Part shown: positions 2,778 through 19,190 of the stretch, piece by piece | Layout: the number at the start of each line of letters is the position of its first letter | Numbering within the stretch: the first letter of the stretch is position 1 | Source of the DNA: a virus | Strand: one strand, 5' to 3' | Virus record (IMG/VR): IMGVR_UViG_3300033142_002522 | Span: 1-29,401 of that record | Length of the DNA stretch: 29,401 nt | Notes under the pieces: generated by a model | What the model saw: only the letters and a program-made list of their open reading frames with translations | What the model was told of the DNA's origin: nothing | Databases searched by the model: none | Made by a program: the position numbers and the translations under genes

Positions 2778-3045
2778 CTACTTGTAGTTTTCCGTTGGTC
2801 ATTCTCACTGTTTTTACGTGCATACCATCTTTGGCGAATTGCTGCCTTACTTCTCGCATCATAGATTCAGGAGTTTCATCATTTACAAAATCAATCAATC
2901 CTACGCCTAGGGCAGGAGCTGCTTTATATTCGCCTTTGCTTGCAGCAAGTATGCTTTGTTTGTGTTGTTGATCACTTATGCCTAATTGTAGATCGCCATT
3001 CACAATTTCAAGGTCTCCATCTTCATCTAGTAGTATGTCTTTCAT
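2764..3045 (-). CDS. gp25/gpW-like baseplate wedge protein
   Basis: A 93-residue protein. It opens with an acidic beta hairpin (MKDILLDEDGDLEIVNGDL), then a helical section and GVGLIDFVND. This is the layout of Mu gp46 / P2 gpW / T4 gp25 family proteins, which dock the sheath onto the baseplate. It lies between the spike gene and the LysM gene, as expected for a baseplate block. Family assignment by pattern and gene order; moderately sure. Confidence 0.65.
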   Translation of the reverse strand: MKDILLDEDGDLEIVNGDLQLGISDQQHKQSILAASKGEYKAAPALGVGLIDFVNDETPESMMREVRQQFAKDGMHVKTVRMTNGKLQVDANY

Positions 3046-4563: not shown

Positions 4564-5178
4564 TTATTCAATTATTAATTCGAATTCTCTATCTGTTACA
4601 CAATCCAATTCAATTATCTGAATGTGTTCAACTCCTGGCTTCATTGCTATTGAATCCTTTTTTATTACAAGCTTATCACTAGGGTGCAGAAATACCGAAG
4701 TAAGAGCACATCGTAGCTCAATGGCTTCATTGATATTAAAAAGCTCATTGAAACGATCAAGCTTTTCTTCAGGCCACTCCTGATTTTCTCCTATGGCAAG
4801 ACCTTTTATATTTATCGCATAATCGTCTATACTTATCAGCTCCTTAATACTTCCTCTACGACCAACCATAGGTGTTTCAATAATTGTTTTAGATCGAGAG
4901 ATGGAAACTACCGCACAATCTATTTCGTACTCTTCGCCATCATGGGCAAAACATACAGGCATAAAATAATATCTGCCTAGCATATCCTTTTTGTAAAGAG
5001 CTACACCCTTGTTGGTGTATAGTTTTTGCTCTCTAGAAACTTGATCCAACTCAAAGTCTCTACCTGAATATGCCCCTTTAGGATTTCCCTTATTGGTAAA
5101 CCACGCTCCTGGGAATGGTAAACCTTTATATCCAATTGCTGACTGTAATAAATCTGTTACATTAAAATCATTAATCAT
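4564..5178 (-). CDS. DUF6046-like tail protein (between tape measure and hub)
   Basis: The ATG at 5178-5176 overlaps the tape-measure stop (5173-5171) in the pattern ATGATTAA, so I prefer it (204 residues) over an upstream in-frame ATG at 5208, which would overlap the tape-measure gene by 38 nt. The protein resembles the DUF6046 family of Bacteroidota phages, and this is from memory only. The C-terminal half (LRCALTSVFLHPSDKLVI, then an acidic beta strand) looks like a compact beta domain. Its place matches Mu gp43, the DNA-circulation/LysM-type protein that joins the tape measure to the hub. Function otherwise unknown. Confidence 0.6.
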   Translation of the reverse strand: MINDFNVTDLLQSAIGYKGLPFPGAWFTNKGNPKGAYSGRDFELDQVSREQKLYTNKGVALYKKDMLGRYYFMPVCFAHDGEEYEIDCAVVSISRSKTIIETPMVGRRGSIKELISIDDYAINIKGLAIGENQEWPEEKLDRFNELFNINEAIELRCALTSVFLHPSDKLVIKKDSIAMKPGVEHIQIIELDCVTDREFELIIE

Positions 5179-8095
5179 AGCTATCAAATGCATGGTTAAA
5201 CTCTTCAATTATTTCTTTCTTAATTCGCTCCACTAGCTCATCATGATCTTTTACTCCATCGGGAATATTGATAACAATTTGTTCGCAAAACTTTTCAAAG
5301 TGAACTTGTCGTGCTTTATTCCGCTTGGGCATGTTTCCTTCAAGCGAAGTGCTAGTTCCACTTGTGCTTATTTCATTTGCTGCAACTCCGCTTGTAGCCA
5401 TTAAGCTTACTAAAGCAATACTAGCAGCTATTTTAACTACATTATCCGAAATCAACTTCAGACAATTAGCCTTTTCGTTCTTGTAATTTTGTCCTTTTTT
5501 TGCATTTTCATTGAGAACAGTGGCCGTTTTTAATTTCTTTGGTGCCGATGTTTCAGCATTTAACCCTCCTAATTGCAAGAATGACAACTTTGAAGCGATA
5601 GCTCCACCAAGAGATGAATCTTTTATATTGGAATCGTTAAGCTTATTAGCCTTTTCGTTCTTGTAATTTTGTCCTTTTGTTGCTTTTTCGTTGAGAGCAG
5701 TGGCTGCTTTTAATTTCTTTGGTGCCGAGGTTTCAGTTTTTAATCCTCTTAATTGCAAGAATGATAATTTAGAAGCGATAACTCCACCAAGAGATGAATC
5801 TTTTATATTGGAATCGTTAAGCTTATTAGCCTTTTTGCTCTTGTAATTTTGTCCTTTTGTTGTTTCATTGAGGGTAGTGACTTCTTTTAATTTCTTTGGT
5901 GCCGATGTTTTATCATTTAATCCCCTAAATCGCAAGGATGATAATTTTGAAGCGATAGCTCCATAAGATGTTGATCCTTTAATATTAGAATCATTAAGAT
6001 TTATTGTTTTCCCTTGTTCTCCAGAACTTGGAATAGCAATAGTTGGTATTTTTGGCACCACCTTATCAATAAGGCTTTGTTTTCCTTCCGATCCGCCTTC
6101 TACTTTTTCTTTTGCTTGCGATTTTTCATTTTCTTTCCAAGACAATTCCCATTTCAAAGAATCTTTTGCTTTCAACAAATAATCAGACACTTTTGCAGCT
6201 CCATCAATAATAGCTTTTTTTCTCTCTGCAGTATCTTTTTGGATTTTTGCCAATGCAGCTTGATTAACTGAAGAATCACCAAGGCCAACAGCTTCTTTAA
6301 ATTGATACCAACCTTCCTTTATCTTATTGATGCCAATCATAAACCCATTAACCGCAATTGTCCACTGGAGCTTAAATGTTTCTACATAAGCCAGAAATGA
6401 GAACTTCATAAATTTCATAATAGAATCCCATTGCTTACCCCATCCCTGTACTTTGGTAACACATATTACTATTGCCGCTACCAAAGCACCTATGGCTAAT
6501 ACAATCCAAATAATAGGGCAACCATATAAAGCAGTATTAAGCATCCATTGAGCACCAGCCCATACTTTTGTGGAAACAGCTACAATTCCATCCCACATTG
6601 CTTTTGCTTTCGTAGATATTATAGCTTTTTGAGAGATAATATATTGCGCTGTCATTATAGCCACTAAGGATGCAATAGAAGCACCCAAGCCTAAAGCCAA
6701 AGGATTTCCTTCTTTCATCAAAGTAAAAAACCACGAAAAAGAATCTTTCACAGCTGTTATTACCGACAATACACCATATAGTATTGGCTGCAAGATACCT
6801 AAACCTGCACCTATTACTGGTAGCACTACGGCTCCTACTATTGTTCCAATATTTTTAAATGTATTCCAAACCTCAGTGAGCTTTTGCATAGAATTTCTCG
6901 ATAAGGTCAGAGCTCTATCAGTTTCGCCAGTGGCATTTGCTGTTGCAGCCAAAGTATCGTTTAGTTTACTTACATCTGATGTAAGAATAGAAAAGGCAGA
7001 TTTTGCTTCTTTATCTCGCAAGCCCATTTTTTCTAAAAAATTACCTCTTTCTTTATCTGTAAATCCCGATAGTTTTGTGCTCAGATCTTGAATAATATTA
7101 CCCATTCCTCGCATTTTACCAGCATCATCGAATATTTTAACTCCTGCCGAGGCTAAATTCTTTTGTATATCGCTTTTCCCTAGTGCCGAAAATGCATTCT
7201 CCATCAGTACCGATGCACGCTCAGCACTTTGTCCCTTGCCAGTCATATAAGCAAATACACCAGCCACTTCTTTATATTTCACTCCAAGATTATCCGCTCC
7301 AGCAATTAAGCCAGGCATATATCTTGCAAAATCTTCAAACTCTCCAGCTCCTACACGTTTGGCGGCAAAGAAAGTATCCATCACCTCTTGAGCATTGGCT
7401 TTTTCCGATCCTAATATAGACATGGTTTGTGCCAATGCTCCCGATACTACATCTAGGTTGGTAGTTCCTGCTTTAGCACCTTTTAGAGCAGTATCAAATA
7501 TCTTCAATGAAGCATTAACATCTCCAACCTGTGATAGTATTTTTTCAAATCCATCAGGAGCAACAGATATTTCGGCCTTATTATCAAGAGCAATTTTTGT
7601 TAATTTGGCTCTCAAGTCACTAAGCCCTTTATCGTCCAACTGTGCCGTTACATTTACCTTTGCCATACTTTGGTCAAAATCCATAGCCGATTTACCTGCA
7701 AAACCCATAGCTGCTGCACCCATAGCTACAGGATTAGTAAATATCCCTGGTAATTCGTTAAACGCATCCTTTACACCTTTCTTAAATTTAGATCCATTAA
7801 CAGTCTCAAGCTTATTTATCTCTTTACTCAAACCTTTTATCTCAGAATTATACTTACGTATAGTAGTCAGATTTTTAGGGTTAATCAGATCTCGCTCTTG
7901 TTGTAATAAATCTATCTTTTGCCTTAGTGTAGTAATGGAATTTCCAAAGTCCTTGGTACTTCGCTGCAAGGCTTTGGTTTTGTCTTGCAGTTTTATGAAC
8001 TTATCAACAGCAGAAACCGAGCTTCCAGTAATTTTTTGTAACTTACCAGAAACCTTATCAGTCAGATTTAGTATGTATTCATAACTCGATGCCAT
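5171..8095 (-). CDS. Tail tape measure protein
   Basis: A 974-residue protein, the longest in the window, placed between the tail chaperone and the baseplate genes. Residues 1-110 are coiled coil. Residues about 130-320 match the TP901-type tape-measure core (FDQSMAKVNVTAQLDDKGL, DNLGVKYKEVAGVFAYMTGK, GQSAERASVLMENAFSALGK). Three hydrophobic segments follow (TIVGAVVLPVIGAGLGI, LALGLGASIASLVAIMT, IIWIVLAIGALVAAIVICV), which may form a membrane pore on DNA entry. The C-terminal part holds three 60-residue tandem repeats, then a hydrophobic segment and a charged tail. The tape measure sets tail length and is ejected with DNA. The ATG at 8095 is the only good start. Confidence 0.9.
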   Translation of the reverse strand: MASSYEYILNLTDKVSGKLQKITGSSVSAVDKFIKLQDKTKALQRSTKDFGNSITTLRQKIDLLQQERDLINPKNLTTIRKYNSEIKGLSKEINKLETVNGSKFKKGVKDAFNELPGIFTNPVAMGAAAMGFAGKSAMDFDQSMAKVNVTAQLDDKGLSDLRAKLTKIALDNKAEISVAPDGFEKILSQVGDVNASLKIFDTALKGAKAGTTNLDVVSGALAQTMSILGSEKANAQEVMDTFFAAKRVGAGEFEDFARYMPGLIAGADNLGVKYKEVAGVFAYMTGKGQSAERASVLMENAFSALGKSDIQKNLASAGVKIFDDAGKMRGMGNIIQDLSTKLSGFTDKERGNFLEKMGLRDKEAKSAFSILTSDVSKLNDTLAATANATGETDRALTLSRNSMQKLTEVWNTFKNIGTIVGAVVLPVIGAGLGILQPILYGVLSVITAVKDSFSWFFTLMKEGNPLALGLGASIASLVAIMTAQYIISQKAIISTKAKAMWDGIVAVSTKVWAGAQWMLNTALYGCPIIWIVLAIGALVAAIVICVTKVQGWGKQWDSIMKFMKFSFLAYVETFKLQWTIAVNGFMIGINKIKEGWYQFKEAVGLGDSSVNQAALAKIQKDTAERKKAIIDGAAKVSDYLLKAKDSLKWELSWKENEKSQAKEKVEGGSEGKQSLIDKVVPKIPTIAIPSSGEQGKTINLNDSNIKGSTSYGAIASKLSSLRFRGLNDKTSAPKKLKEVTTLNETTKGQNYKSKKANKLNDSNIKDSSLGGVIASKLSFLQLRGLKTETSAPKKLKAATALNEKATKGQNYKNEKANKLNDSNIKDSSLGGAIASKLSFLQLGGLNAETSAPKKLKTATVLNENAKKGQNYKNEKANCLKLISDNVVKIAASIALVSLMATSGVAANEISTSGTSTSLEGNMPKRNKARQVHFEKFCEQIVINIPDGVKDHDELVERIKKEIIEEFNHAFDSYD
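5461..6000 (-). repeat. Three tandem ~180-bp repeats in tape measure gene
   Basis: Copies run from about 5461, 5641 and 5821. The segment read on + as ttagcc(t)ttttcgttcttg recurs at 5466, 5646 and 5826, a period of exactly 180 bp; the leftmost pair is nearly identical. Each copy encodes about 60 residues with the core KLNDSNIKDSSLGG and ETSAPKKLK. The third copy is 3 bp shorter and more diverged. The frame is kept throughout, so whole units have been duplicated. Confidence 0.9.
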
Positions 8096-8311: not shown

Positions 8312-8802
8312 TTACATTGACATGCTTTTACCTATTATTTTACTCTGATAGTGCATCATCCACAATGCCATTGTTGTTTGATGCACCCATTCTTCGTCTG
8401 GCAATTCGTCGGGGTTCATGTGTAGTATAGAACGAATGAGAGTATCTGCCTTAAATATGCTTCCACTCTCACCATCTAAATCTATACCCCTTAGAGCTTT
8501 TTTATTTCGCCTTCTTTTATTTCGATAAGCTCAGCAATTTGAGCAGACAAACCTAAGAAATAACCATCATTTTCTCTCAGGATCTCATTACCATCGAGCC
8601 AACAATTATTTATCATTACCTCGTTATACTTCATTGGGTCGTTTTTCCCAATTACCGAAGCAGCACCTAATGTTTTACGATCAGGTTTTCTTAAGTAACA
8701 TTTTTTACCATCGGCTTCGTAAACAAACACTTCGCCATATTTCTTTTTCCACTGAGCAATCTTTTCTTTCAAAGTCAACTCTTTATTTTCTTTTGTTAAC
8801 AT
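8312..8802 (-). CDS. Tail assembly chaperone, predicted -1 frameshift product (gpGT-like)
   Basis: If ribosomes slip -1 on the A_AAA_AAG at 8503-8497, the 0-frame protein loses its last Leu and continues for 61 codons to the TAA at 8314-8312, giving 163 residues. The extension reads ALRGIDLDGESGSIFKADTL, then further codons including EEWVHQTTMALWMMHYQ. It looks like real protein (acidic, then aromatic helix), and no independent start is needed. Two-product chaperones made this way are established for lambda gpG/gpGT and many other tails. The 0-frame codons are ATA AAA AAG CTC TAA, so the stop follows right after the slip site. I see only a weak 5-bp stem downstream. Confidence 0.8.
8491..8802 (-). 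CDS. Tail assembly chaperone, short form (gpG-like)
   Basis: A 103-residue protein between the tail tube gene and the tape measure gene, the slot always held by the tail assembly chaperone in long-tailed phages. It is charged and helical (KENKELTLKEKIAQWKKKYG) with a beta part (FVYEADGKKCYLRKPDRKT) like the gp41/gpG-type chaperones that coat the tape measure. It ends EGEIKKL. The final codons contain an A_AAA_AAG slippery heptamer that opens a -1 extension (see the separate entry). Confidence 0.75.
   Translation of the reverse strand: MLTKENKELTLKEKIAQWKKKYGEVFVYEADGKKCYLRKPDRKTLGAASVIGKNDPMKYNEVMINNCWLDGNEILRENDGYFLGLSAQIAELIEIKEGEIKKL
8497..8503 (-). promoter_or_regulatory. A_AAA_AAG slippery site for -1 frameshift
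   Basis: Read on the - strand, the seven bases are A AAA AAG with AAA and AAG as 0-frame codons, the same heptamer as E. coli dnaX. The stop codon of the zero frame comes one codon later. The -1 frame is open for 61 codons beyond. Confidence 0.8.
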
Positions 8803-14135: not shown

Positions 14136-14633
14136 ATGGCAAAAGAGAAAGAAAGGCAATTAGCACACTTCTATTATGTTGAAAAACAACAAACTGCAAA
14201 AGAAGTTGCACCTCAAGTTGGAGTCTCTGAAAAGACAATGACTGCTTGGGTTAATAAGTTTGGATGGAAAGCCGAACGAGAAGCTAGAGTTTGCTCATCG
14301 GAGAGTAGAGCAGAGAATATAAAACAATTAATATCCGAAATGGCCAATGAACGAATCAGCTTAAATACTCGATTGCAAGAAGCTCTAAATTCAGGCAAAA
14401 ACAAACAAGCAACAGAAATAAGACAGCACATAGGTCGCCTTGATTCGGGAGTTGCCAATTGGAACAAAACACTGGAGCAAATCGACAAAAAGAATAAAAT
14501 ACCTCTACATGCTTACCTCAATGTAATGGAAGAAGTATTTAAGGCTCTTCGACTGCACGATTCTAAGCTATATATGGAAACACTTCCATTTCAAGAAGTT
14601 CATGTTTATGATATTTCACAAAAACTAGGCTAA
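14136..14633 (+). CDS. Terminase small subunit
   Basis: Start chosen at the ATG at 14136 (MAKEKERQLAHFYY, 165 residues). An upstream frame from 14079 would read through the regulatory dyad and looks non-coding. The N-terminus holds a helix-turn-helix (QTAKEVAPQVGVSEKTMTAW, about residues 19-38), as in Mu-type small terminases that bind the packaging site. A helical middle and a C-terminal region (YLNVMEEVFKALRLHD) would oligomerise and contact the large subunit. The stop codon shares one base with the TerL ATG (TAATG), suggesting coupling. Confidence 0.8.
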   Translation: MAKEKERQLAHFYYVEKQQTAKEVAPQVGVSEKTMTAWVNKFGWKAEREARVCSSESRAENIKQLISEMANERISLNTRLQEALNSGKNKQATEIRQHIGRLDSGVANWNKTLEQIDKKNKIPLHAYLNVMEEVFKALRLHDSKLYMETLPFQEVHVYDISQKLG

Positions 14634-16147
14634 TGAAAAAAATAGACAAAAGTACTCAAGAAGCCTATTTAGCCAAGTTAAAATTAATCAGAGATAATGC
14701 AGCCGAAAATCCTTTCGAAACAAATGAGGAACAAAAGGAAAGAGTCAAGCGTGCAAAAAGAGATGTACGCTTTTTTGTGGAATATTATTTTTCACATTAT
14801 GCCGATTGCGAGTCAGCCGATTTTCAAATAAACTTAGCCAATCGTGTTGCACGAAATAAGGTTTGTCACGAATTGGTGCGTTGGGGTCGTGGGCTTGCCA
14901 AATCAGTTTGGTCTGATATCATTATTCCCATGTGGCTATATGCTAGGGGAGAAAGCCTGTTTTGCGTTGTGGTTGGAAATAACTACACAGCGGCAAAAAC
15001 TCTATTATCAGATATTCAAGCCGAATTTGAGGCTAACGAAAGAATCAAACACGATTTTGGAGATCAAAAATTTATCGGCTCCTGGGAGGATGGAAATTTT
15101 CAAACAAAAGATGGTCGATTTATGGGGAGAGCCTTAGGTATGGGACAGTCTCCTCGTGGACTTCGTAAAGGAAAACAACGTCCTAATTATATTGTTTGTG
15201 ATGATTTAGAGGATAGAGAAACAGTCAAGAATCCTAAACGTCAGGACGAAATAGTGCGATGGATAGAAAAGGATCTTCTACCTACTATGGATGGTACTAC
15301 TCGTAGATACCTGCATCCTAATAATGATTTTGCACCTCGTACTATCCAAAACCGTTTGGAAACTTTACATCCTAAATGGCATGTTGATTTGGTGAAGGCA
15401 TACGATAAGCTAACATACGAACCTCGTTGGAAATCGAAATATCACAAAGATTATTACCGGGAGTTAGAGGACGAAATTGGTACAATTGCAGCACACGAAG
15501 AATATCTACACGAAGCAATAACTCAAGGCAAGATATTTACAAACGAGCTATTTGTTTTTGCCAAAGCTCCACGTATCGATCACATGAAAGTACTTACAGG
15601 GCATTGGGATCCAGCTTACAGTGGAAATAACGATTACAACGCAGTAAAGGTTTGGGGCTTGCATGGTATAAACTTTTGGCACATGAAAGCTTTTTGTAAG
15701 CAGTGTAAAATGGAAGATGCCGTGCGCTTTATGTACGAGTACGAAAAAACTTTGCCTAAGAATGTAATCATAATTTGGAGGGTAGAAGCTCAGTTTTGGA
15801 ACGAACCACTAAAGCAAGCAATTGCAAGAGTTAGGCAAGAATACAACAAATGGCTTAACATCTCTATTGTTGACAGATCACGCCAAAGTAAATATCCTCG
15901 TCTTCTTAGTATGCATCCATATTATCAAAGCGAACGCATATATTATAATAAAAATGAGGAGGCAAACCCTAGCATGCAAGAAGGTATTCGCCAAACAAAA
16001 GGAATAGAACCTGGATACTCTACTCACGATGATGGTCCCGATGCAGACGAACAAGCTATTGATTACCTTGCTCAGTTTGTAGACTACTCAACAGGAGATT
16101 CATCGGAAGTAGAAATGGGTGGAGAACGAAGAAGCAACCGTATGTAA
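14633..16147 (+). CDS. Terminase large subunit (packaging ATPase-nuclease)
   Basis: A 504-residue protein. The ATPase part has a Walker A-like RWGRGLAKSV (Lys90) and Walker B YIVCDDLED (Asp190, Asp191). The nuclease part has GHWDPAYSG (Asp326) and a C-terminal THDDGPDADEQAIDYLA (Asp466, Asp467, Asp470), which would bind metal as in Mu gp28 and other headful packaging enzymes. Length fits Mu gp28 (about 550). It drives DNA into the prohead and cuts it beyond the phage ends into host DNA, if it behaves as in Mu. Confidence 0.92.
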   Translation: MKKIDKSTQEAYLAKLKLIRDNAAENPFETNEEQKERVKRAKRDVRFFVEYYFSHYADCESADFQINLANRVARNKVCHELVRWGRGLAKSVWSDIIIPMWLYARGESLFCVVVGNNYTAAKTLLSDIQAEFEANERIKHDFGDQKFIGSWEDGNFQTKDGRFMGRALGMGQSPRGLRKGKQRPNYIVCDDLEDRETVKNPKRQDEIVRWIEKDLLPTMDGTTRRYLHPNNDFAPRTIQNRLETLHPKWHVDLVKAYDKLTYEPRWKSKYHKDYYRELEDEIGTIAAHEEYLHEAITQGKIFTNELFVFAKAPRIDHMKVLTGHWDPAYSGNNDYNAVKVWGLHGINFWHMKAFCKQCKMEDAVRFMYEYEKTLPKNVIIIWRVEAQFWNEPLKQAIARVRQEYNKWLNISIVDRSRQSKYPRLLSMHPYYQSERIYYNKNEEANPSMQEGIRQTKGIEPGYSTHDDGPDADEQAIDYLAQFVDYSTGDSSEVEMGGERRSNRM

Positions 16148-16163
16148 TTAATAATTAGAAATA

Positions 16164-16574
16164 ATGTTTATACAAAAAGAAGATCTATATAAATCAATTA
16201 GAGAACATGAGCTCGACGAAATTACTGGTAATGATGATATGCTAGTTAAGCATGCCATCAATTCAGCCATTTCAGAAGTAAAGGTATACCTGCAAAAGAG
16301 ATACGACACCGAAGCAGTGTTTTCAGTTCAAGGCGAAAACCGAAATTCTTTAATTGTTTCGTTTACGGTAGATATTGCCTTATACGAGATTGTAGCAATA
16401 GCACTGCCAGGGCAAAATCTAGACGATAGGCGAGCCCGATATAAGCGAGCCATTGATTATCTAAAGCAAGTGCTAGATGGTAACATATCGCCGGACTTAC
16501 CAGAGCAAGGAAACGAGAATTATTCTGAAGGAGAAAGCACAGGTGGAAATCCTGCACGAAACAATTATTTCTAA
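16164..16574 (+). CDS. DUF1320 / Mu gp36-like protein
   Basis: A 136-residue protein starting MFIQKEDLYKSI, followed by a long helical part (DEITGNDDMLVKHAINSAIS and EVKVYLQKRYDTEAVF) and an YEIVAIALPGQNLDDRRARY segment. This pattern is that of DUF1320 (Mu gp36). Members are thought to be head-tail connector (adaptor) proteins. In Mu the gene lies after the capsid gene; here it has moved between the terminase and the portal. The C-terminal 30 residues are polar, disordered-looking (Gly, Asn, Glu). Confidence 0.8.
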   Translation: MFIQKEDLYKSIREHELDEITGNDDMLVKHAINSAISEVKVYLQKRYDTEAVFSVQGENRNSLIVSFTVDIALYEIVAIALPGQNLDDRRARYKRAIDYLKQVLDGNISPDLPEQGNENYSEGESTGGNPARNNYF

Positions 16575-16617: not shown

Positions 16618-17883
16618 ATGAGCAAGCGTAAACGCAAACCCAACAATAAAGTAAATACAAAAACACCTTCTGAATTTGTAGAAGTAGTAGCAGGAGCACC
16701 CCGACGAGAAGGATTCGATATAGGAAAATGGCGAATGGCTATCCGTTCGGCTGAAAACCCTACCGATCCTAACCGAATTTTATTATACGATATCTACAAT
16801 GATATTTTATTGGATACCCATCTCACGGCTGTGCTCGAAAAACGAGAAGATGCCATAGCTGGTAGCAATATTACTTTTTCGGGAACTAGCGAAAACAAAG
16901 CTATTTCCGAACTTATAAACATGCCCTGGTTCGAAGATATGCTAAAGGATTCTCTTAATGCTAAGTTTTGGGGATATTCGGCTATGTGGCTCGATATTGC
17001 TGGAGGTGTATTTAATAAATACCGATTGCTCAAGAGAAAGCATATTCGTCCTGAAAAATCATTATTCCTGAACAAACCAGAGGACAAAGAAGGTATTAAT
17101 TTCTTAAATCCTCCTTATTCGTACTATGTATTGCATGCTGGCAAAACCGACGATTTAGGCGTGCTATTAAAAGCAGTGCCTTGGGTATTGCTTAAACGTG
17201 GGGATGTATCCGACTGGGCAACATTCAACGAACTTTTCGCAGCCCCTTTTCGAAAGGGTACATACCAAATGGGAACTCCAGGTAAAGATGAATTAATCAA
17301 AGCTTTGAAAACTTCAGGATCTATGTCTTGGGCTGCTATACCTAACGATACTAGTCTTGAATTTATTCAAAATACCGCTTCGGGAAGTACTACTGCATAT
17401 AAAACATTTGCTGAGTTTTGCGATAAGCAGATCTCTAAGCTATTTCTTGGCAACACACTAACCACCGATGCTGAAGGAGGAAAATATAAAGGCGATATTC
17501 ACAGAGATTCAGAGAAAAGTAAATTTGCTGCAGATAGGCGTTTTATTCTCAACTTATTAAATACCTATTTTATTGAATTACTTGAGGTACATGGCTTCAA
17601 ACCCAATGGGAGCAAATTTTCCTTTGTAAAGGATGATAACATGCCGCTTGATAAGCGATTGGATATGGATATGAAGCTTTCTGAGAAAATTGAAATACCA
17701 ACAGAATACTGGTATAGCAAATACGATATTCCTATGCCTAAAGGAGGAGCCAAAGTTGCAGTAAAATCAAAAGAAGAAAAAAAGAAAAAGCTTAGTGCAC
17801 CACGCACAGATGCACAATTGCATGTTTCTAAAGAACAAAATCCAAAAACAAAGAAAAAACATTTTTGGGATTTTTTCGTTTAA
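16618..17883 (+). CDS. Portal protein (DUF935, Mu gp29-like)
   Basis: A 421-residue portal protein of the DUF935 family. IRSAENPTDPNRILLYDIYN with the nearby TAVLEKREDAIAGSNITFSG, and MPWFEDMLKDSLNAKFWGYS with VFNKYRLLKRKHIRPEKSL, are the usual landmarks. GNTLTTDAEGGKYKGDIHRD is the conserved late motif. The C-terminus is basic and ends KKKHFWDFFV. The portal ring at one vertex is where DNA enters and the tail attaches. The last codons (GAT TTT TTC GTT TAA) hold a T_TTT_TTC slippery site followed by a hairpin. The following gpF frame is at -1, so a portal-gpF fusion may be made. Confidence 0.92.
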   Translation: MSKRKRKPNNKVNTKTPSEFVEVVAGAPRREGFDIGKWRMAIRSAENPTDPNRILLYDIYNDILLDTHLTAVLEKREDAIAGSNITFSGTSENKAISELINMPWFEDMLKDSLNAKFWGYSAMWLDIAGGVFNKYRLLKRKHIRPEKSLFLNKPEDKEGINFLNPPYSYYVLHAGKTDDLGVLLKAVPWVLLKRGDVSDWATFNELFAAPFRKGTYQMGTPGKDELIKALKTSGSMSWAAIPNDTSLEFIQNTASGSTTAYKTFAEFCDKQISKLFLGNTLTTDAEGGKYKGDIHRDSEKSKFAADRRFILNLLNTYFIELLEVHGFKPNGSKFSFVKDDNMPLDKRLDMDMKLSEKIEIPTEYWYSKYDIPMPKGGAKVAVKSKEEKKKKLSAPRTDAQLHVSKEQNPKTKKKHFWDFFV

Positions 17884-19190
17884 GCCCTCTATCCTCAGAG
17901 GGCTTTGCCGATAAATTAGACAAGCTGTATTATAATAATTCGCATAGCTGTGGTGAGGATCCCGAATTAAAACTATCTCAAGATCAATTGGAATTTATTC
18001 TTGACACCAAAGTAATTAATAATGCTTTAATCAATATTTACAAAGGATTAGATATAAGTAATGAAATAGAACAAAACCTTTTATTAGCTACATGGCAATC
18101 TTTAAATCTTGCCACCGACGAAGGTTTTGGAAAAATTATTTATGGAGAAACTAATTTTGAATTTGTCCAGGAACTGAAATATAATAATGCTGTATTTGCG
18201 GCTTTTAAAACTCATCGACAGCAAAACGATTTAGCCAAAATGCTTTTAGATGAAGAAGATAAATTAAAAAGCTTTGCCAAATTCAGAAAAGATGCTGGTA
18301 ATATTATTGCAAACTACAATCAAAAGTGGTTACAAACAGAATATAATACAGCAGTAATACGTGCTCGTACGGCCGCCCAGTTTAAACAGTTTGAGAAAGA
18401 AAAACATATCTATCCAAACTTAATGTGGGTGCCTTCAACAGCAACAGAACCTCGTTCTTCTCATGTTCCATATTACAATAAAGTCTGGAAAATGGACGAT
18501 AGCTTTTGGAGTACAAATCGCCCTGGTACCGAATGGGGTTGCAAGTGTGGATTATCATCTACCGATAAAGAACCTGATGGGCATACGGTGGAAGCATTCA
18601 GCCGTGCAAAAATAGCTAAAGGATTAGAAAATAATCCAGCTAAGGATGCAAAGCTATTTTCAGACAAGCATCCTTATGTTGAAAAAGGCTATGGCTCTAA
18701 AAAGAAACGCAAGCAATTGGCAGTCGATACTGCCGATAAGGCTAGCATGGAAGCTTGGGTCAAGGATATTGTAAATAATAAAAATGCTCGTGGTATTACT
18801 AAGCAAATAGGCACTATTAATAAGGGTGTTGCTAAAGCTTTAAAAAAGGAAGGAATAATTATTGATACTGAAGATATTTTTTTATCAGATAAAGCAGTAT
18901 TACACATGATGCGAGATGCTAAAACCACATCGCCTTTAATTAGCGATTTAGCAACAATTAAACAAGATTTAAACAATGCTGAAATATATTTCGACACCTC
19001 AAGCAAACACAAAAACTTACTTTATGTTACCGAAAAAGGGAATGATAAATATGTAAAATATGCCATACAGCCAAACTATAAAACTAAGATTGAAGGTAAA
19101 AAACAGAAGGTTAATTATGTGCTTACTGGAGGATGCGTTGATTCAACTGCTATGAAGCGAAAGGTATATAAAAAAATAAAGCTTAAGTAA
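17865..19190 (+). CDS. Minor head protein gpF-like, with C-terminal nuclease-like domain; non-ATG start
   Basis: A 441-codon frame whose only listed start is TTG at 17865; the first in-frame ATG is codon 126 (18240), too late for the family. Residues 150-235 are the Mu gpF / SPP1 gp7 head morphogenesis domain (WLQTEYNTAVIRARTAAQ, LMWVPSTATEPRSSHVPYY, GTEWGCKCGL). Residues about 330-435 (DIFLSDKAVLHMMRD, IKQDLNNAEIYFDTSSKH, VKYAIQPN, VNYVLTGGCVD) resemble the Barnase/EndoU/colicin E5-D/RelE-like nuclease domains often fused to this family. The stop overlaps the 3' arm of the antisense tRNA-like element. It may be translated as a -1 frameshift extension of the portal protein, or from the TTG. 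Confidence 0.85.
   Translation: MGFFRLSPLSSEGFADKLDKLYYNNSHSCGEDPELKLSQDQLEFILDTKVINNALINIYKGLDISNEIEQNLLLATWQSLNLATDEGFGKIIYGETNFEFVQELKYNNAVFAAFKTHRQQNDLAKMLLDEEDKLKSFAKFRKDAGNIIANYNQKWLQTEYNTAVIRARTAAQFKQFEKEKHIYPNLMWVPSTATEPRSSHVPYYNKVWKMDDSFWSTNRPGTEWGCKCGLSSTDKEPDGHTVEAFSRAKIAKGLENNPAKDAKLFSDKHPYVEKGYGSKKKRKQLAVDTADKASMEAWVKDIVNNKNARGITKQIGTINKGVAKALKKEGIIIDTEDIFLSDKAVLHMMRDAKTTSPLISDLATIKQDLNNAEIYFDTSSKHKNLLYVTEKGNDKYVKYAIQPNYKTKIEGKKQKVNYVLTGGCVDSTAMKRKVYKKIKLK
17871..17905 (+). promoter_or_regulatory. T_TTT_TTC slippery site plus hairpin (-1 frameshift signal)
   Basis: T TTT TTC occupies 17871-17877 with TTT and TTC as zero-frame codons. A 4-nt spacer follows, then arms AAGCCCTC (17882-17889) and GAGGGCTT (17898-17905) pair perfectly around an 8-nt loop. 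The zero-frame stop (17881-17883) lies at the base of the stem. Confidence 0.65.

Follow-up and report, generated by a model that had tools for sequence, protein, structure and literature searches.

Results

A predicted recoding signal at the end of a phage portal gene

We examined the junction between the genes for the portal protein and MuF (gpF) in the IMG/VR virus record IMGVR_UViG_3300033142_002522, all 29,401 nucleotides of which were analyzed and are referred to here as the window. This 29.4-kb record represents a Mu-like phage, and its + strand carries, in order, the genes for terminase, a gp36-like adaptor, the portal and MuF (Table 1). The portal is of the Mu gp29 type, as judged from its PF06074 domain and the adjoining terminase and gp36-like adaptor genes, and its 0-frame product has 421 amino acids and the C-terminus ...HFWDFFV. 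MuF is assigned to the Phage_Mu_F (MuF/SPP1 gp7) family by its PF04233 domain and by the location of its gene directly 3' of the portal.

The portal open reading frame (ORF) ends ...GAT TTT TTC GTT TAA and includes, in the phase of the portal, the slippery heptamer T_TTT_TTC, which the initial annotation had pointed out and which the sequence confirms. On a −1 slip the Phe-Phe tRNAs would re-pair on TTT TTT and the next codon would be CGT (17877-17879). The −1 frame is that of MuF, as first proposed and as borne out by the PF04233 match and the translation; it is open for 437 codons plus a stop, from the slip to 19187, and the long ATG-less entry that had been described is real, the first ATG lying 123 codons past the heptamer. 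The predicted portal-MuF fusion would have 857 amino acids and a mass of 97.7 kDa, in line with the approximately 97 kDa initially given, and at the junction it would read HFWDFFR where the plain portal ends HFWDFFV.

Downstream of the heptamer there is a stem-loop that covers the region of the portal stop codon together with MuF codons. The initial annotation had placed a hairpin four nucleotides past the heptamer, which is correct, but had given it 8 bp and an 8-nt loop, whereas folding yields a stem of 9 bp (17882-17890 with 17897-17905) and a loop of 6 nt, with an energy of −14.5 to −14.8 kcal/mol and z = −2.15. Because the window is AT-rich, its + strand has TTTTTTC at 20 places, so that the heptamer alone is no proof, and a statistical case built on the window by itself was abandoned for that reason. 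The argument is hence one of comparison, in which phase, hairpin, spacing and conservation are considered together.

Table 1. Features of the portal-MuF region of the window
Feature	Position	Strand	Basis or remark
Terminase large subunit	14633-16147	+	Annotation
gp36-like adaptor, Phage_Mu_Gp36	16164-16574	+	Domain match
Portal gene, Mu gp29 type	16618..17883	+	Portal_Mu PF06074, E = 9e-70; PHROG 113 portal protein
TTG in MuF frame, two codons 5' of heptamer	17865..17867	+	Only conceivable nearby separate start; not conserved
Slippery heptamer T_TTT_TTC, in portal phase	17871..17877	+	Sequence
MuF (gpF) coding sequence, −1 frame after slip	17877..19190	+	PF04233, E = 1e-10; translation
Spacer, heptamer to stem	17878..17881	+	4 nt counting A-U pairs; 6 nt to conserved GCCC core
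Stem-loop AAGCCCTCT-ATCCTC-AGAGGGCTT, putative stimulator	17882..17905	+	Folding; homologous stems with compensatory changes

Conservation of the heptamer and the stem

A tblastn search with MuF against annotated phages retrieved Bacteroides phage p00 (hankyphage) and others. Counted along the ORF that starts at the TTG of the window, the matches extend from residue 3, a point 5' of the annotated hankyphage start. A single-protein search of viral contigs returned no relatives, although alignment-based searches did. In hankyphage (L002) and in L003, L004, L005, L007, and L008 the portal ends with an in-phase TTTTTTC, after which comes GCCCC(G)...CGGGGC, and MuF again occupies the −1 frame. Scans of genomes and viral contigs produced about 200 loci, and among the 211 loci examined 170 have MuF in the −1 frame and carry, where the two ORFs overlap, an X_XXY_YYZ in phase that is almost always TTTTTTC. 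A non-redundant set of 137 junctions, which includes hankyphage p00, was selected on the heptamer, with the loci lacking it listed separately; 130 of its members have TTTTTTC and seven have TTTTTTT, all in phase. The portal codon usage (TTT is 27% of Phe codons and third-position T is 18%) leads one to expect T_TTT_TTY in about 5% of sequences given xFF, compared with 137 of 137 in this heptamer-selected set. An X_XXY_YYZ heptamer in the phase of the upstream gene, one hallmark of a −1 signal, is thus present in the window and in the 137 junctions, and the comparison with relatives that was initially suggested shows that both heptamer and hairpin are kept. The aligned MuF proteins of the relatives are only 27-43% identical to that of the window, yet the heptamer, spacer and stem are constant. 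The conserved signal is found in phages of gut-type Bacteroidetes.

A second hallmark, a selectively maintained structure some 5-8 nt downstream, is also found; frameshift stimulators usually start 5-8 nt downstream of the slippery site (PMC4066793). In each sequence of the non-redundant set we searched for a stem starting 2-9 nt after the heptamer, and a stem of at least 6 bp is present at 98% of the junctions as opposed to 26% of random portal positions, with a median folding z of −2.3, while the best stem starts 5-6 nt past the heptamer in 125 of 137. Among 55 distinct sequences of the FFRLSPxDYxGLH type, 99.5% of the cells pair and 34 cells are changed on both sides, giving a covariation score of 0.224 against a shuffled mean of 0.076 (none of 500 shuffles was as high), and this covariation is destroyed when the pairing partners are slid by 1-3 columns. 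RNAalifold reported no structure for the mixed-length type A alignment, where MAFFT had split arms of differing loop length across columns, and it was replaced by the per-sequence stem search and by a test of own versus other arms. In that test, which took in all types, 89% of sequences have the complement of their own 6-nt arm downstream, and 2% have that of an arm taken from another sequence. One deviating locus, from an uncultured Persicobacter (L054, ~2961-3030), has T7 rather than T6 before CGG, with MuF at +1/−2 relative to the portal, and retains the FFRL motif and a CCCCGAT...ATCGGGG stem; for its frame an assembly error, a −2 shift and RNA polymerase slippage cannot be told apart.

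The same junction is recovered by a search that is blind to homology. The pattern TTTTTTCGNNNNAGCCCC, consisting of the heptamer and the 5' arm, was searched in viral contigs and 80 loci were stored, 73 of which are portal-MuF junctions, including all 66 that have the GGGGC 3' arm downstream. The portal is in the 0 frame and MuF in −1 in 65 of the loci, and the two are in one frame in at least five.

Inverted polarity in a clade of in-frame fusions

Phages of Porphyromonas gingivalis and their relatives have a single in-frame portal-MuF ORF of about 845-890 amino acids where the locus is complete. In L212 (BK068092.1, 1546-4104) an annotated 852-amino acid 'portal' continues into MuF without a change of frame and also carries a nuclease-like PBECR2 domain, and its junction reads CGT TTT TTC GCG TCG GCC CCG TCG CAA GGC GGG GCG, with an in-phase heptamer and a stem. 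The clade was sampled through L212, L214, and 22 further viral contigs (L220-L241), and it forms a single group in a quick tree with a support of 99. All 18 distinct junctions keep the heptamer and the complementary arms, and in most of them the −1 reading stops 20-32 codons on, from which a plain portal is predicted. These relatives, unlike the window, have the properties of inverted recoding of the dnaX kind, namely a long 0-frame product, a heptamer and stem that are kept, and an early −1 stop. The fusions of L212 and L220-L241 are annotated simply as 'portal', and the predicted short portal product is unannotated.

That the recoding element persists under both polarities is difficult to account for unless the phages need plain portal as well as portal-MuF. 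The polarity switch is a natural experiment, in that slippage should be efficient if the two products are needed at similar ratios. Other junctions depart from the T heptamer. L213, L242, and L243 have an in-frame fusion with a conserved A10 run that includes an in-phase A_AAA_AAG and a quick −1 stop, L101 and L102 have an A9 run at the junction with MuF in −1, and L045 has an in-frame fusion that lacks the T heptamer at the junction and is nested among the −1 phages.

Entry into the MuF frame and alternative explanations

Reading the MuF frame from its previous stop to the heptamer, we found no ATG, GTG, or TTG in 128 of the 137 junctions, and the starts in the nine exceptions differ in position. 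The TTG at 17865, noted initially as the one start near the head of the MuF frame, is one of these nine and is almost private to the window phage. Past the heptamer, the median position of the first ATG is codon 45, and in 26 of 137 it comes at codon 100 or beyond. In type B phages the predicted tryptic peptide LSPxDYxGLHxR would precede most or all of the available start codons. From the portal stop to the first possible start (ATG, GTG, or TTG) the differences at codon positions 1, 2, and 3 are 0.44, 0.38, and 0.63, and when the comparison is taken as far as the first ATG, reading in the MuF frame gives a synonymous fraction of 0.27, versus 0.09 and 0.06 for the shifted frames. The start-less stretch hence evolves as MuF-frame coding sequence and must be translated although nothing there can start, as frameshifting from the portal predicts. 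With the exception of the window's TTG, a third hallmark of a −1 signal is therefore present, a downstream ORF that is conserved as protein and has no start of its own.

These data bear directly on whether MuF might be initiated separately, either at the TTG or at a downstream ATG, GTG, or TTG coupled to termination of the portal, with the heptamer and hairpin being incidental or regulating translation. The TTG does exist in the window, and hankyphage p00 is annotated with a MuF start (L002 2543) at an ATG 14 codons past the heptamer. This ATG is inside the conserved MuF reading, so the first MuF residues have probably been missed in GenBank for hankyphage and similar phages, and the trans-frame stretch predicted in hankyphage, for whose virions mass-spectrometry tables have been published (PMC12135933), is ...FF|RESPGERRGSFR. 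Distant relatives (pippi8-1, Peternella_1, FPSV-S1, Mu, and environmental contigs) have separate MuF genes with ATGA overlaps or separate ATGs, and relatives with an ATG start and no heptamer, which the initial annotation would have taken as a refutation, do therefore exist in Flavobacterium pippi8-1 and Mu, but they are outside the clade. Separate initiation is nevertheless improbable given the lack of upstream starts in nearly all relatives, the scatter of the downstream ones, the coding constraint on the start-less stretch, and the persistence of the in-phase heptamer even where MuF is fused in frame.

Slightly less probable still is transcriptional rather than ribosomal slippage on the T run as the source of the fusion. 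Homopolymers can make RNA polymerase slip, and such slippage is plausible at the A10 junctions of L213, L242, and L243 and the A9 junctions of L101 and L102, where the runs are possibly a transcriptional means of doing the same job. T6C, however, is short for RNA polymerase slippage. It is also a legal X_XXY_YYZ in a fixed phase, with a covarying stem at the usual 5-8 nt (PMC4066793). A last reading, in which the hairpin terminates transcription or forms by chance and the shift in frame reflects misassembly or prophage decay, has practically no likelihood and as a general explanation is already refuted by the conservation data. The hairpin is indeed GC-rich and close to the stop codon, and a small number of loci show clear damage (L056, and perhaps L139 and L197). 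No U tract follows the hairpin, however, for which reason the terminator reading was dropped; the stem is within coding sequence in both frames in many relatives and covaries, and the same frame relation recurs in about 130 distinct genomes, contigs and phages.

Variable C-terminal domains of MuF

The MuF C-termini of relatives comprise a papain-fold glutamine deamidase, CdiA_C, LPD3 or PBECR2, and hankyphage MuF has a clear Gln_amidase C-terminal domain. In the window no Pfam domain was found in the C-terminal part of MuF, the structure model is confident for a core of residues ~41-276 and of low confidence past residue 280, and comparison of the model with the PDB gave no match at E ≤ 0.001, so that the nuclease-like tail initially ascribed to this gpF is unsupported. 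For the 852-amino acid fusion the structure model has low confidence, and the junction falls in a part where prediction is poor. Since the C-termini of the relatives are variable and effector-like, the same slip would attach an effector to the portal vertex.

Other features of the window

At the place that the tail chaperone occupies in Mu-like phages (8312-8802, − strand) a 103-amino acid ORF ends ATA AAA AAG CTC TAA, with A_AAA_AAG in phase at 8503-8497, and the −1 frame is open for about 60 codons to 8312. This looks like an ordinary tail-chaperone frameshift, which would give the window phage two recoding sites. The tape-measure-like gene (5171-8095) contains a 180-bp unit repeated three times in tandem at 5465-5998 on the − strand, the units being 87% alike.

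Discussion

A module that may set the ratio of plain to extended portal

We propose that a programmed −1 frameshift, directed by U_UUU_UUC, a spacer of 5-6 nt and a GC stem-loop, very probably takes place at the end of the portal gene and yields both the portal and a portal-MuF fusion. The frameshift joining portal and gpF that the initial annotation had suggested is supported by the conservation and covariation of the signal, by the start-less MuF and by the in-frame fusions. The majority of ribosomes would complete the plain portal, while a fraction would slip back one base and read on in the MuF frame to give the 857-amino acid fusion, such that most or all MuF may be synthesized joined to the C-terminus of a portal subunit. 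The two kinds of subunit, plain and extended, would then co-assemble to place a small set number of MuF copies inside the capsid at the portal vertex, and the variable MuF C-terminal domains would be carried along into the capsid interior. Slippage on Bacteroidetes ribosomes, its efficiency, the mixed ring, its stoichiometry and a role in effector loading are what we infer from these comparisons, and some 1-2 of 12 portal subunits carrying MuF would fit slippage near 10-15%. In general terms, it is likely that Mu-like phages of Bacteroidetes have a conserved recoding module that sets the ratio of plain portal to portal-MuF, that occurs in two polarities and appears to have given way to slippage on A runs in related lineages, and through which a set number of the ~12 subunits tether an effector-bearing head protein, with few effector copies per virion at the site of DNA exit.

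Several considerations weigh against this proposal. The case for recoding is drawn throughout from sequence comparison, which covers the signal and how well it is conserved, the coding stretch that lacks a start, the naturally fused ORFs and the change of polarity, and the 137 junctions share ancestry, their counts being non-independent. U_UUU_UUC belongs to the frameshift-prone motifs in Escherichia coli (PMC4066793) but ranks as medium rather than top among bacterial motifs, and a stimulator upstream of it was not established. The TTG of the window phage could initiate MuF separately, and distant relatives start MuF at its own ATG, which means that a fusion is not a universal requirement. 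In 295 whole Bacteroidia-class genomes the short pattern did not occur more often than its reversed control and is therefore specific only within viral sequence. Lastly, a low efficiency would leave the in-frame clade with mainly the fusion and the −1 clade with mainly the unextended portal, two outcomes that fit poorly with a stoichiometry common to both; if both polarities give similar ratios, the efficiency would be intermediate and not small.

Portal rings are usually treated as homo-oligomers. The recoding signal implies chemically mixed rings in which a fraction of the subunits carries a second protein, and such a ring would offer a simple means of holding a minor head protein at a fixed copy number as well as a covalent route for loading MuF toxins. 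This would apply to hankyphage, which is widespread in human gut Bacteroides, and to the P. gingivalis phages, where the second product is absent from the annotation. Bacteroidetes ribosomes make little use of Shine-Dalgarno pairing, and the portal-MuF junction offers a test of −1 frameshifting on them.

Comparison with known systems

Phage frameshifting, in-frame portal-MuF fusions (PMC5512222; PHROG 35074), and MuF toxins (PMC5576092; PMC11699363) are already known. PHROG 35074 is an in-frame portal-MuF fusion with the same fused architecture, and portal-MuF-PBECR domain architectures have been noted before in PMC5512222, in passages that do not mention a slippery heptamer, a hairpin or a second short product within the fusion. 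Portal-MuF fusions as such are therefore not new, while the initial remark that none made by frameshifting was known agrees with the literature searched here. In the open-access papers searched on portals with frameshifting, slippery sequences or MuF no prior report was found, an absence that is no proof; the portal is likewise not mentioned in the GeneTack survey or in the accessible part of a 2016 frameshifting review. While the mechanism is known, the protein pair and the two-polarity module appear to be new.

The tail assembly chaperones of the lambda gpG/gpGT type are similar in that a conserved −1 frameshift fuses adjacent phage morphogenesis genes, and the SPP1 17.5/17.5* tail chaperone frameshift even uses UUUUUUC, the same heptamer as portal-MuF (PMC6316719). 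The system described here differs in joining the portal and MuF, which are virion components of the head vertex, in its covarying stem, and in the inverted polarity of one clade. That inverted polarity resembles dnaX. In dnaX the 0 frame gives the long product and −1 slippage the short one (tau/gamma). Similarly, the 0-frame product of the P. gingivalis phage clade is the long fusion and a −1 slip would give the short product, although different genes are involved and the polarity is the reverse in the window and in most relatives. MuF polymorphic toxins (Jamet 2017; Bxa of Bacteroides stercoris, PMC11699363) have variable MuF C-terminal domains, as do the relatives here, but these reports describe MuF as a free-standing gene and do not mention a frameshift, whereas here MuF is predicted to be joined to the portal by one. 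The same two protein families are encoded by adjacent genes in SPP1 (gp6/gp7) and Mu (gp29/gp30, F), and SPP1 gp7, the MuF protein, binds the portal and is present at 1-2 copies per capsid (PMC5576092). In SPP1 and Mu, however, MuF has its own start and associates non-covalently, while in the window system it is predicted to be a covalent extension of portal subunits.
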